Shown: in pieces, positions 13,147-64,000 of the stretch
Layout of the letters: each line of letters starts with the position of its first letter
Position numbering within the stretch: the stretch's first letter is position 1
Source of the DNA: Ktedonobacteria bacterium brp13
GTDB taxonomy: Bacteria; Chloroflexota; Ktedonobacteria; Ktedonobacterales; Ktedonobacteraceae
Length of the DNA: 64,000 bases
Reading direction: 5' to 3'
Assembly (NCBI GenBank): GCA_015099395.1
Contig: AP024096.1
Location: 558,001-622,000 of the forward strand
Notes under the pieces: generated by a model
Database searches by the model: none
What the model saw: only the letters and a program-made list of their open reading frames with translations
What the model was told of the DNA's origin: nothing
Program-made: the position numbers and the translations under genes

Positions 13147-13944
13147 CTACACTTCCTGCTTTTTCTGACGCCATTTTTTGAATGCTTCGTCTGACCATAT
13201 TTCTAGCTTTTGATATCTGTCTTTAAGCGTTGGGTCCTCGTGAAAATACCGATACCGTGGATACTCATATCCGGCTCGCTTACCAAGGATGACCGCAACC
13301 ATTTCATGGTCGTTGTCCGTCTGGGGGCCTCGGATCCCTTCATGGCTCTCATTGCGGAGGGAGTTTGGATCGTCACCGTCACTCATAAGGACTTGTGTTG
13401 CAAATTCGACCAGTTCTTCGTTATATGCTTCGTGGCCGATTCGATCAGCTCGTATTTCTCGATTAGATGTGCTCGCTCTTCTTGCCTCTAATTCCCGTAT
13501 TATGCGATCTCCTAGACTCTCATATCCCGGTTGCGCTCTTATTTCCTCTTTTTCCCGTCTTATGCGATCCATGATAGCGTCATATCCCGGCTGCGCCCTT
13601 CTTTCCTCTCTTTCCCGTCTTATCTGAGCATCTGGACTCTCATATCCCGGTTGCGCTCCTCTTGCCTCTAATTCCCGTATTATGCGATCTCCTGGACTCT
13701 CACATCCCGGTTGCGCCCTTATTTCCTCTCTTTCCCGTCTTATGCGATCCATGATAGCGTCATATCCCGGCTGCACCCTTCTTTCCTCTCTTTCCCGTCT
13801 TATCTGAGCATCTGGACTCTCATATCCCGGTTGCGCATACAAAGATCGTTCAAATTCCGATCTACCAGATGAAGGTGAGGCATTGTTAGTAGGCAAATCA
13901 GATCCATCTGGATTATTTCCGATCTCTCTCCATGGCACACTCAT
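13147..13944 (-). CDS. Hypothetical protein with 60-residue tandem repeats
   Basis: 265 residues from ATG 13944; a TTG at 13983 next to GGGGGTAGG is the alternative start. Function is not recognised. Residues about 30-155 are a tandem array built from 20-residue modules of the type AQPGYESPDAQIRREREERR, which alternate in three versions (ESPDAQIRRE, DAIMDRIRRE, ESPGDRIIRE), so the DNA repeats with an exact period of 180 bases (13481-13660 and 13661-13840). The modules are highly charged and should form helices broken by QPGY. The C-terminal 110 residues are non-repetitive (EELVEFATQVLM, HEMVAVILGKRAGYEYPRYRY) and may be the functional domain. The gene sits exactly between two identical 202-bp elements, with only short margins, which suggests it was mobilised with them. 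Confidence 0.7.
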   Translation of the reverse strand: MSVPWREIGNNPDGSDLPTNNASPSSGRSEFERSLYAQPGYESPDAQIRREREERRVQPGYDAIMDRIRREREEIRAQPGCESPGDRIIRELEARGAQPGYESPDAQIRREREERRAQPGYDAIMDRIRREKEEIRAQPGYESLGDRIIRELEARRASTSNREIRADRIGHEAYNEELVEFATQVLMSDGDDPNSLRNESHEGIRGPQTDNDHEMVAVILGKRAGYEYPRYRYFHEDPTLKDRYQKLEIWSDEAFKKWRQKKQEV

Positions 13945-13997
13945 AATCCTTTCATCACCATATGTGTGATCAATTAAAAGCAACCTACCCCCATAGG

Positions 13998-20764: not shown

Positions 20765-20795
20765 GATAAAAAAGAAGTTAGCACTTTGACGTGCT
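20765..20795 (-). terminator. Intrinsic terminator of the P-LLLAMMM repeat gene
   Basis: On the minus strand the TAG stop (20794-20796) runs into AGCAC-GTCAAA-GTGCT (20780-20795), followed six bases later by TTTTTT (20767-20772 complement). This supports the minus strand as the coding strand of the repeat gene. Confidence 0.65.
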
Positions 20796-21528
20796 ATACT
20801 GTCTCTTTTTCGCGCTCCTCACGGCGAGACATCATGGTAGCTAACAGCAGTGGGCTGATACCCTCGCTGCGCTCCTCATGTCCTTCACGGCGAGCCATCA
20901 TCATAGCTAACAGCAGTGGGCTGATACCCTCGCTGCGCTCCTCACCCTCCTCATGCTCTTTACGGCGAGCCATCATCATAGCTAACAGCATTGGATTGAT
21001 TCCTTCGCCGCGCTCCCCGCGTTCTTCACGACGAGACATCATCATAGCTAACAGCAGTGGATTGATTCCTTCACCGCGCTCCTCACGGCGAGCCATCATC
21101 ATAGCTAACAGCAGTGGGCTGATACCCTCGCCGCGCTCCTCGCGCTCTTCACGACGAGACATCATCATAGCTAACAGCATTGGATTGATACCTTCGCCGC
21201 GCTCCTCACCCTCACCCTCCTCATGCTCTCTACGGCGAGCCATCATCATAGCTAACAGCATTGGATTGATACCTTCGCCGCGCTCCCTGCGCTCTTCGCG
21301 GCGAGCCATCATCATAGCTAACAGCATTGGATTGATACCTTTGCCGCGCTCTTCACGACGGCCCATCATGGTTGCCAGCAGAAGAGGGCTGATACCCTCG
21401 CCGCGCTCCTCGCGCTCTTCACGGCGGCCCATCAGAGCGGCTACCAGGAGCGGCATTTCTTCGACGACACCTTCAGCGCCCTCGCGTTCTCGGGCTTCAC
21501 TCATGCGCTCACGTACAGCAGTTGGCAT
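20794..21528 (-). CDS. Ten-copy P-LLLAMMM / Arg-Glu tandem repeat protein (unknown)
   Basis: 244 residues; start ATG 21528 with GAGAGGAGA five bases upstream. No known family was recognised. After about 25 residues (MPTAVRERMSEARERE) the whole protein is a tandem array of about ten units of 18-27 residues. Each has a hydrophobic core P-(L/M)-LLA-(M/T)-MM and a variable linker rich in Arg and Glu ending in GEGI-(N/S). Cores are almost invariant, while linkers vary in length by whole codons (RREERGKGI to RRREHEEGEGEERGEGI). Hydrophobic Met-rich patches spaced by salt-bridged helices suggest self-assembly, membrane or metal contact, but this is speculation. The opposite strand is also open across the repeat, but it has no ribosome site, whereas this strand has both a ribosome site and a terminator. 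Confidence 0.65.
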   Translation of the reverse strand: MPTAVRERMSEAREREGAEGVVEEMPLLVAALMGRREEREERGEGISPLLLATMMGRREERGKGINPMLLAMMMARREERRERGEGINPMLLAMMMARRREHEEGEGEERGEGINPMLLAMMMSRREEREERGEGISPLLLAMMMARREERGEGINPLLLAMMMSRREERGERGEGINPMLLAMMMARRKEHEEGEERSEGISPLLLAMMMARREGHEERSEGISPLLLATMMSRREEREKETV

Positions 21529-22244
21529 AAAAATCTCCTCTCGGAATATCTTTTACACATATCAGGATTCTCCCTATGAATAGAGAGAACAATGTGGAAT
21601 ACAGAAGAATTTGAGCATTATTTACTGCTTATCCGAAAACTTGAGTGATAGCACTAGCGACACCAGTCGCGTTGGTTTTCGGAATAAGATCTTAGAAGAT
21701 GCAAAGACCTTCAAAATATCTGTATTTCCTTCGTCATTATAGAAGCCGTCTAAATAGAAACCTCTTAAATATAGCGTTTTTTCAATCGGACAATCGGACC
21801 TTTGGGAAACACATTTCATAGCCTATGCATAAGCGTGCATTTTGGAGAAGAAATAAGTAGGAAGAGGTCGCAGCCATTAGAACGAGTTCATCTTTTTAGT
21901 ATAGAAGATCTAAAGCAGTGGTTTCTACAGAAAATTTCTTGTATACTATATGGAACTTACTAGATTGCCACTACATATCTTTCGGCAGTGATGGTAGAAA
22001 ATATTAGTAATGGTAGAAAAGGTTCAGCTTCTCACCATTGCCATCATGATTCGCTCTCTGTAGAGACATAAATCTATGTATGCATATGTTATATATTTTG
22101 TTCCCCTTACTCAAAGATTTACTATTTTCTTACTCAAGAACCCAGGTCGTGATGCAGACTACACGATTTTTCGAGCGAGAATTCCATAGTTACAGTGAGC
22201 TTTTTGATGAAGGGAGACGTACAATTTGCCCAGGAGAAAGAGCA
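21529..22244. other. Gene-poor spacer
   Basis: About 715 bases with no supported gene. It holds copy 2 of the cloverleaf-like repeat (21628-21688). An open frame running from 22080 into the next gene lacks a ribosome site, so those bases are treated as untranslated. AT-rich stretches near 21940-21960 may contain promoters but no consensus pair was certain. Confidence 0.5.
21628..21688 (-). repeat. 61-bp cloverleaf-like palindromic repeat, copy 2
   Basis: Inverted relative to copy 1 at 12786-12847. Read on the minus strand it has outer arms CTTATTCCGAAAAC and GTTTTCGGATAAG and inner hairpins GCGAC-TGGT-GTCGC and AGTG-CTAT-CACT. Homology extends through TAAGATCTTATT up to 21694. Sequence differences from copy 1 fall in loops or keep the pairing. 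Confidence 0.75.
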
Positions 22245-22556
22245 ATGCAAGACAAAAGTTTTTCGCAAGCCGTGCAAGACTTGCAGGATAGAGTATCCAG
22301 CAATTTCCAGGAATCAATAAACTATATGCTCCTCTATCGCACGACAGCGACCGATGCTACTCTGGCTATCGAGGATGAAAAAGTGCGAGCAGTAGTTACT
22401 AACGAGCTGATTACTGATCAGTTAATCGCCTTGCTCACCCTGATGAAAGATTTGCGCATGCTCGACAAGGAGCAGTACGATGAGTTCATAGCCTATCTTC
22501 TGCGTGCTCTTGCTTCTCAGCATAGCGAAGTTACAACATGGAACAACTCCAGGTAA
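22245..22556 (+). CDS. Small helical hypothetical protein, 103 aa
   Basis: Start ATG 22245 chosen for GGAGAAAGAG eight bases upstream; the same frame is open back to 22080 without a site. Unrecognised. The sequence is all-helical in appearance: FSQAVQDLQDRVSSNFQESI, then KVRAVVTNELITDQLIALL and DKEQYDEFIAYLLRALA. No signal peptide, membrane helix or catalytic motif. It lies between the repeat-protein locus and the sigma factor, and copy 2 of the 92-bp repeat begins 36 bases after its stop. A role cannot be inferred. Confidence 0.55.
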   Translation: MQDKSFSQAVQDLQDRVSSNFQESINYMLLYRTTATDATLAIEDEKVRAVVTNELITDQLIALLTLMKDLRMLDKEQYDEFIAYLLRALASQHSEVTTWNNSR

Positions 22557-46816: not shown

Positions 46817-47107
46817 AAAGTCTACCAGATTCCACGTAAATTTCTATATTTGAGCTTATTTTGCTGCTTTGCGGTCTACCAAACTTACATTGCGGTCTAC
46901 CACAATTACTTTGCGGTCTACCAAAAATATTCAGCGGTCTGCCAAATTTATTTTGCGGTCTACCAAAAATATTCAGCGGTCTGCCAAATTTATTTTGCGG
47001 TCTACCACTTTTGCGATGGTAATCTTCTACAACACCCACGATGCTTGCCTGCTTAGCGCTAGCGGTCTACCACTTTTCAGCAAAAGTCTACCACTTTAGA
47101 CCGCATG
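46817..47107. repeat. 21-bp iteron array (core GCGGTCTACCA)
   Basis: Seven head-to-tail units of exactly 21 bases start at 46871, 46892, 46913, 46934, 46955, 46976 and 46997. The core is GCGGTCT(A/G)CCA with an AT-rich second half. Two more units in the same 21-base register start at 47062 and 47083 (the latter AAAGTCTACCA), a lone AAAGTCTACCA sits at 46817, and an inverted half-site TAGACCGC ends the block at 47097-47104. Twenty-one bases is two helical turns, so a protein could bind all units on one face. With the AT-rich block it looks like a replication or partition origin or a regulator binding array. Confidence 0.8.
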
Positions 47108-47113
47108 GAGTTG

Positions 47114-48400
47114 TTATTCAGCAGGTTGCACGACAACAGAGGATTCTGCTTGCTCGGTTTTTTTAGGCAGGTATCGTTCTGCATGTCCGATTGGGCTGAG
47201 CGAAAAACCGAGCGGAATAAGGAAGGTCAGGATGCCGATAATCGTATACACCAGGCCTACATTCCCTGTCGCAGTGATCAGCCAGCCACCCAGTAGCGAT
47301 CCTATGGGGATGACGGACCAGGCCAATACGGCGGCAATCGACATGACACGTCCAAGCATATGGTTGGGTACGATTGCCTGACGTAAACTACCGGTATTTA
47401 TATTGAAAAGTATACCACAACCGGATGAGATAGCAACACAGAGTAGAGCCAACCAGTACCAGTGTGTAAGCGAACTAATAAGTATAAAGATACCGTCCAG
47501 CATCAGTGCACTCAGGGCGACTCTACTGAAACTCCAGCGTTTCCTGAGAACGCCTGCCAGCAAGGAGAGCACAACGATGCCAATACTACTGAATGTATAG
47601 AACAGGCTGGCCTGAAAGTCCGTGGCGTGAAAGCGATCCTTGGCAAAGAGAATCAGTTGAGTCATCGCAGTTGTGGCTACAAAGTTGACCAGCGCCATCA
47701 TGAGCGAGATGTTGCGCAAGACAGGATGCCCCAGGACATAGCGTAACCCTTCGACAACGTCGGCCAGAATACGCTTGCGCTCACGTGTTTCATCCGCGGC
47801 ACCATTGAAGCTGATCGTGACCAGTGCCAGACTGATGGCGGATAGTATAAATGAAAGAGCATCCAGTAACATCATTGCTGAGAGCGGCAACCTGATCACT
47901 AACACACCGGCCAGCGCTGGCCCCAGGATAGCTGCCGCTGAGTAACTGGCCTGGATACGTCCATTCGCCGTGACCAGATCGTCCTGACCAACCAGATTCG
48001 GGATGGCGGCAAATTCACCCGACTCAAAACAGATGTTCAGCGTCGCATTGATAAAACCAACACCATAGATCCACCAGACAGAGAGCCAACCAAGCATAGC
48101 AGCCAGGGGGATGGTCGCAATTACCAGGGCACGCAAAATATCTACAGAGATCATCAGCCGTTTACGATTGACACGATCCATGACAGCTCCCAACAACAGA
48201 CCAAAGAGGAGATAGGGGAGCATATTCGCGGCCATTGAGATACCCAGATTGAGTGCGGATCCGGTCAGCTTATACACCAACAACGGCAAGGCGAAAAGAG
48301 TAATCGAACTACCAAGATTGGAGATCGTCTGACCAAACCAGTACTTCCAATAGTTACTGCTCAGTCTCCGATCTCCATGCTGTCCTTGCTGTATAGCCAT
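47114..48400 (-). CDS. MFS efflux transporter (MFS_3/MefA type)
   Basis: 428 residues, AGGAGG eleven bases before ATG 48400. It is a twelve-helix inner-membrane proton antiporter. The opening NYWKYWFGQTISNLGSSITL and LPLLVYKLTGSALNLGI, and the loop-2 motif GAVMDRVNRKRLM, are typical of the macrolide/siderophore exporter group. The second-half counterpart LLAGVLRKRWSFSRVA is also seen. The C-terminal tail is short (TEQAESSVVVQPAE). It lies 55 bases after a winged-helix regulator on the same strand, so it is probably an inducible drug or metabolite exporter controlled by that regulator. The substrate is unknown. Confidence 0.88.
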   Translation of the reverse strand: MAIQQGQHGDRRLSSNYWKYWFGQTISNLGSSITLFALPLLVYKLTGSALNLGISMAANMLPYLLFGLLLGAVMDRVNRKRLMISVDILRALVIATIPLAAMLGWLSVWWIYGVGFINATLNICFESGEFAAIPNLVGQDDLVTANGRIQASYSAAAILGPALAGVLVIRLPLSAMMLLDALSFILSAISLALVTISFNGAADETRERKRILADVVEGLRYVLGHPVLRNISLMMALVNFVATTAMTQLILFAKDRFHATDFQASLFYTFSSIGIVVLSLLAGVLRKRWSFSRVALSALMLDGIFILISSLTHWYWLALLCVAISSGCGILFNINTGSLRQAIVPNHMLGRVMSIAAVLAWSVIPIGSLLGGWLITATGNVGLVYTIIGILTFLIPLGFSLSPIGHAERYLPKKTEQAESSVVVQPAE

Positions 48401-63318: not shown

Positions 63319-64000
63319 ATGCATCCATCTTCGCTCTTACTTTTATTGGGGGCAGCCGCAGTGGTTGCCATCCTACACGCAATCTTGCCCGATCACTGGG
63401 TACCTCTGGCAGTTGTCGCACGAACTCAGCGCTGGAGCCTGCTGCGCGTAGGACGTGTCACCTTTCTGGCATCTCTTGGGCATGTTATCACGTCGCTTGT
63501 GCTCGCTGGCATCATCGCAATCATCGGCCTACAGTTTCAGAAAGAGTTTGAAACGCAACAAGGGCATATTGTCGGCGCTGTGCTTGTGCTCACCGGTATC
63601 ATCTTTCTCATCTGGGGGCTGCTTGGTAATGGAGCCCATGGGCATCATCATGGAGAAGGTCATACTCATACTCATGGATTTGAGGATGGTCACGAACATA
63701 CACACGACCATGACCACGAACATACTCACGACCATGATCACACACATACTCACGATCACCCTCACGACCATGATCACACACATACTCACGATCACCCTTC
63801 CATAAAGGAGCGCTCCATAGCAAGACGGCTGGCGGCCATTGCTATACCCTTTGGAGTTGCAGCATCGCCTGATCTCACCATTCTGCCTGTTGCGTTAGCT
63901 GCCAGTGCTGTGGGAACGGGAGCCATCGTTAGCGTCCTGGGCATATTTACTGCATTCACCATCGTCACCTTCATCGGCCTGACCATCATTGCCACGCTAG
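63319..64000 (+). CDS. His-rich metal (Ni/Co/Zn-type) exporter, cut by window edge
   Basis: At least 227 residues, ATG 63319 with AGGGGAG six bases upstream, open to the right edge. A membrane protein with LLLLLGAAAVVAILHAILPD and DHWVPLAVVARTQRWSLLRV. The HAxxPDH motif in the first helix recalls the HxxxxDH metal site of NicO/NiCoT-like transporters. Helices follow at about 45-65 and 76-98. Residues about 102-160 are a metal-binding linker of alternating His with Asp, Thr and Glu, coded by a tandem DNA repeat (63712-63797). A second membrane half begins near residue 165. With the ArsR sensor before it this looks like a metal-efflux unit; ion identity is inferred. Confidence 0.82.
   Translation, partial: MHPSSLLLLLGAAAVVAILHAILPDHWVPLAVVARTQRWSLLRVGRVTFLASLGHVITSLVLAGIIAIIGLQFQKEFETQQGHIVGAVLVLTGIIFLIWGLLGNGAHGHHHGEGHTHTHGFEDGHEHTHDHDHEHTHDHDHTHTHDHPHDHDHTHTHDHPSIKERSIARRLAAIAIPFGVAASPDLTILPVALAASAVGTGAIVSVLGIFTAFTIVTFIGLTIIATL

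Follow-up and report, generated by a model that had tools for sequence, protein, structure and literature searches.

Several known systems come close to the protein analysed here. The pyrenoid Rubisco linkers EPYC1 and CsLinker carry structured elements spaced 20-120 residues apart (PMC11570498), and the surfactant-like peptides A6D, V6K and L6K2 are free, designed molecules in which inter-strand hydrogen bonds help to build ribbons and tubes (PMC4237179). Phasins and PHA-granule proteins have Ala/Leu-rich helices, and the ankyrin repeat is a 33-residue helix-turn-helix-loop.

The tandem-repeat protein that we describe is encoded within a 64-kb stretch of DNA (the whole of which is called the window), and on paper it resembles the first two systems in layout. 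It has in common with the pyrenoid linkers its predicted short helices repeated on a chain, the lack of a predicted tertiary fold, a layout that would cross-link partners, and homologues in close relatives only (PMC11570498). In contrast to these linkers, the protein is bacterial, its helices are surfactant-like, and its spacing of 17-27 residues straddles the lower edge of the 20-120 range; the resemblance is one of layout, and no sequence relation is claimed. With A6D, V6K and L6K2 it shares a short neutral or hydrophobic tail joined to a charged head, and like them it would be expected to self-associate (PMC4237179), whereas it is natural, predicted to be helical, carries ten units on a chain and has both charges in the head. 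No description of the repeat family was found in the open-access literature.

The repeat gene and its coding strand

Comparison among genomes indicates that the tandem-repeat gene (Table 1) is a real, conserved and undescribed gene whose minus strand is settled. The minus-sense frame was open in all eight genomes that carry the gene, and the stops in relatives that the initial annotation had named as grounds for refutation were absent. When ten species pairs were compared, third codon positions held most of the differences, and dN/dS was 0.10-0.22 in the eight pairs that allowed an estimate; synonymous sites were saturated in the remaining two. These comparisons indicate that purifying selection acts on the minus frame. 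Together with the conserved ribosome site, the open frames and the dN/dS values bear out the minus-strand coding proposed in the initial annotation.

Table 1. Positions of the repeat gene, its neighbours and its signals in the window.
Feature	Position	Strand	Remarks
Tandem-repeat gene	20794..21528	-	244 aa from ATG; orthologues in seven other genomes
Partner gene, 120 aa	20177..20539	-	Same strand, just downstream of repeat gene
Divergent small gene (MQDKSFSQAVQDLQ), 103 aa counted from ATG	22245..22556	+	Upstream; optional third member
Ribosome-binding site region CCGAGAGGAGATTTTT	21529..21545	-	Directly before ATG; AAAGGAGATTTTT-like in relatives
Probable -10 box, conserved TATAATGACGA	21731..21741	-	207 nt from start codon; long 5' leader
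Possible terminator hairpin TAGCAC-GTCAAA-GTGCTA + T run	20779..20796	-	Overlaps stop codon; weak
Antisense ORF, 285 aa	20726..21583	+	Spans array; judged not a gene

The 244-aa protein starts with an N-terminal cap (aa 1-25), followed by ten units of 19-27 aa. In the source genome the units follow the pattern P-(L/M)LLA-MMM-(A/S/G)RR-E/K/R..., which can also be read as P-(L/M)LLA-MMM-(A/S)RREE..GEGI(N/S); GEGI(N/S) closes each unit ahead of the next proline, and the final unit ends in RREEREKETV. The core motif P..[LV]A..[ML].RR was counted ten times, which is not chance, as none arose in 20,000 residue shuffles, and the DNA array was also picked up by Tandem Repeats Finder. The unit-to-unit distances were 22, 19, 22, 27, 22, 19, 22, 25 and 22 residues. 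Both the ten-copy repeat claimed at first and the change of linker length by whole codons were thus confirmed. The net charge of the protein is slightly negative (43 K+R vs 51 D+E). A single, sub-threshold Rfam snoRNA match inside the array was taken as chance.

The ribosome site, the start and a 3' terminator had all been said to fit this strand, which stood for the first two and is weak for the third. AGGAG lies six bases upstream of the ATG, and the ribosome site is conserved in the relatives. The hairpin at the 3' end exists, but three terminator-like sites were found in the region against 2.3 expected, which is the chance level, and the hairpin is therefore weak evidence. Further upstream, the TATAAT box and the ACGA after it were invariant in four Dictyobacter; no good -35 and no consensus sigma-70 promoter close to the repeat gene were called. 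The leader of about 200 nt (21529-21741, minus strand) was partly conserved in Dictyobacter, and an Rfam search with it returned no family.

Other repeats were observed elsewhere in the window. A second tandem-repeat gene (13147-13983, minus strand) has 20-residue units such as AQPGYESPDAQIRREREERR, encoded by a 60-bp repeat in about six copies, and gave no match in a Pfam search. A 21-bp tandem array of TTTGCGGTCTACCAAAATTAT (46867-47007, 6.7 copies) lies just past the 3' end of an MFS-like gene (47114-48400, minus strand), and a repeat of the CACGAxCATxxx type (63691-63798) gives a His-rich stretch in one frame.

Family history and the partner gene

A profile search covered 47 genomes of the order Ktedonobacterales, and an evenly drawn sample of 301 genomes represented the phylum. 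The repeat gene was present in eight of the 47: the source genome, Dictyobacter vulcani, D. kobayashii, D. aurantiacus, two Ktedonobacterales metagenome-assembled genomes (MAGs; both of one other genus), a genome of the same family (G013) and one MAG in which a contig end truncates the copy. None of the repeat, partner and divergent small genes showed up in G001, a 260-contig genome from the same genus. The phylum sample gave chance matches only, including one antisense to a WLRDL repeat gene (G130) and one at a site with no repeat array of this kind (L058 in G098). Weak matches in G067 (antisense to a leucine-rich repeat gene) and in G030, G044, G014 and a second G003 site (no such repeat array) were discarded; none of these was recovered by the profile search. 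The family therefore appears limited, within what was searched, to one family of the order Ktedonobacterales. Its carriers are soil bacteria around the genus Dictyobacter, and it is a lineage-restricted orphan family.

The searches for known relatives agreed with the first impression that the protein belongs to no recognised family. No entry in Pfam, NCBIfam, PHROG or PDB fits the repeat protein, the partner or the divergent small protein, and the PHROG matches of the repeat protein were only sums of weak pieces. Searches of phages, plasmids and viral contigs gave no match, although low-complexity filters may hide weak ones, and a phage or plasmid protein was rejected since no homologue was found in these collections. 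When the repeat protein was compared with genome contigs and with viral contigs, nothing was confirmed by tblastn; low-complexity filtering probably explains part of this result.

Over 65 units, the consensus core reads P-L-L-L-A-(A/T)-L-M-(S/A)-R-R-E. The description of the core as Met-rich and nearly invariant is accurate inside the source genome, to which the MMM core is special, but not in the seven relatives, where A/T predominates at position 6, followed by L at position 7 and M, L or A at position 8. This variant looks like the product of some local homogenisation. The core was conserved across genera while unit spacing ranged from 17 to 27 residues, in line with the suggestion that selection acts on the hydrophobic core and leaves the linkers freer. 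As for copy number, exactly ten units were present in four genomes of two genera, and eight or six in the others. The ten units of the source genome recur in D. vulcani in unchanged order (diagonal score 77.4 vs 61.7 off-diagonal; 0 of 5000 permutations as high), and the two genomes have a common spacing series of 22-19-22-25/27-22-19-22. Because the units match position by position and the spacing is common, we conclude from these alignments that the array is older than the split of these species, and the recent repeat expansion offered earlier as an explanation is not borne out.

The partner gene was found in exactly the eight genomes with the repeat gene, adjacent and on the same strand in all eight, and in the other 39 of the 47 genomes neither gene was found. 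Identical presence sets would arise by chance with a probability of about 3e-9 if the genomes were independent, but they are not. As a query of genome contigs, the partner protein matched six loci. Its N-terminal helix (DPMVEALIKELL) is conserved, and in its C-terminal helix Pro recurs every eight and Leu every four residues (ALAEALAP); AlphaFold2 predicted a long C-terminal helix at residues 63-117 with low confidence (pLDDT 62). In the relatives, no other gene of the window was found in a matching place within roughly 10 kb to each side, and the sigma-factor gene that adjoins the source locus maps to a different contig or replicon in three Dictyobacter. Since the flanks differ everywhere and this gene lies elsewhere, the repeat gene and its partner stay together while their surroundings change. 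The constant placement of the two genes side by side suggests that their products jointly help to build some intracellular assembly. This linkage, which is absent from the initial annotation, is the clearest lead to function.

The divergent small gene is adjacent in five of the eight carriers. A distant paralogue in the source genome (L059, 3893-4192, minus strand) and a relative in another genome (G012; L061, 1998-2363, plus strand) each stand in divergent orientation next to a SARP/BTAD-like regulator, and a large MalT-like protein is encoded close by, as assigned by eye. The divergent gene may be a separate matter, because its relatives stand beside another kind of regulator.

Predicted helices and a possible assembly

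AlphaFold2 predicted one helix per unit, spanning most of the unit, with no confident packing or tertiary fold (pLDDT 46, pTM 0.18; eight sequences); this low-confidence model leaves room for a solenoid, a bundle or an oligomer. The helical hydrophobic moment of the source units was 0.06, compared to 0.23 in shuffled units, and in all seven sequences measured the mean moment (0.06-0.17) was lower than in the shuffled controls (0.22-0.24), because hydrophobic and charged residues separate along the helix axis. The charged fraction was 0.23-0.39. The highest mean hydrophobicity over 19 residues was 1.29 (Kyte-Doolittle), too low for a membrane span, which appears unlikely in this protein, and inspection by eye revealed no signal peptide.

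On the grounds of the layout analogy and the linkage to the partner, we tentatively propose that the product of the repeat gene is a multivalent scaffold in the cytoplasm, which is made of surfactant-like helices, assembles with itself and works with the partner, a reading we hold at somewhat less than an even chance. Each unit would be a short helix begun by an N-cap and proline (N/S/H-P), with a body of about eight hydrophobic residues and then RREE(R/E), and a glycine-containing turn (GEGI) would end the unit. With the hydrophobic and charged parts split along the axis and not around it, each unit may behave as a small surfactant. A chain would thus present about ten stickers with charged spacers of variable length between them, and the stickers could bind one another and also the partner's Pro-spaced Leu/Ala helix, giving a granule, a fibre or a coat. 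We infer that the protein is helical in the cell, self-associates, binds the partner and is cytoplasmic.

A hydrophobic block followed by RR, the lack of a long membrane span and an Ala/Leu-rich partner would also suit a peripheral membrane, lipid-droplet or polymer-granule coat, with the hydrophobic 8-mers inserted into a single leaflet, the RR residues at the head groups and ten copies providing avidity. We consider such a coat unlikely. The units are without the lateral amphipathicity of lipid-droplet or phasin helices, and lipid-surface helix repeats of the perilipin or phasin type were rejected as the high moment they require is absent. Ala/Leu-rich helices are common to phasins and the partner protein, but PhaC_N (PHA synthase) was detected in four of the eight carriers, none of them Dictyobacter, and was not found in five genomes of the genus Dictyobacter, four pair carriers among them; a PHA-granule coat is therefore unlikely in Dictyobacter. 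Pfam gave neither protein a match to PHA-granule proteins. A link to encapsulin was not supported (0 of 8 carriers), nor was one to gas vesicles (GvpA in only 4 of 8 carriers and not found in the source genome).

The regular units raise the question of an ordered helical-repeat solenoid or fibre that serves as a defined binding surface, for example of the ankyrin type, and the source protein scored 27 bits against Ank_3 (Pfam PF13606; cut-off 22.3) from GISPLLLATMMGRRE-like stretches. Both have G-x-(T/S/N)-P-L-x-L-A at the helix start. However, Ank_3 matched one of the eight orthologues, by summed weak pieces of which no single stretch passes, and one helix per unit of 17-27 residues with no confident tertiary model makes a solenoid of this kind quite improbable. 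The ankyrin repeat itself was ruled out: Ank_3 was absent from seven orthologues, and the second helix and the loop are missing from the one-helix units.

Small proteins with a conserved long leader, together with the divergent gene's distant paralogue, which in two genomes adjoins a transcriptional regulator, could instead indicate a regulatory or ribonucleoprotein factor with a stress or development role, whose Arg/Glu spacers bind RNA or protein and whose helices dimerise. We regard this as doubtful, given that no nucleic-acid-binding family was matched and the charge is slightly negative. Near-identical short cores with charged flanks are the layout of multi-core precursors, so that a RiPP- or bacteriocin-type precursor, with hydrophobic cores cut out at RR/EG sites, was also weighed; it is very unlikely, as the neighbourhoods have no modification enzyme, protease or exporter in common and only the partner genes recur. 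Finally, the notion that the locus is repeat DNA and not a gene, or that the plus-strand ORF is the real one, draws on a plus frame open across the entire array in the source genome, but 2-6 stops interrupt this frame in every one of the seven relatives (in one of them another antisense frame is open by chance), and the plus-strand ORF is judged not to be a gene; the minus frame is open and under purifying selection, and the notion is largely refuted and scarcely credible.

Taken further, the scaffold reading would make the pair an undescribed two-component protein assembly in mycelial Ktedonobacteria whose building blocks are axially amphiphilic helices, in place of coiled coils or helices that are amphipathic laterally, a bolder claim that we consider unlikely. 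If the scaffold reading is right, bacteria of one family would produce natural counterparts of the designed surfactant-like peptides, carried on one chain and with a dedicated partner coded alongside, which would represent a new principle for building bacterial assemblies in a small, easily tested two-gene system. If it is wrong, there would still be a genuine orphan family of two genes whose strand, start and partner are fixed, and the pair can be used for annotating these large, poorly understood genomes.
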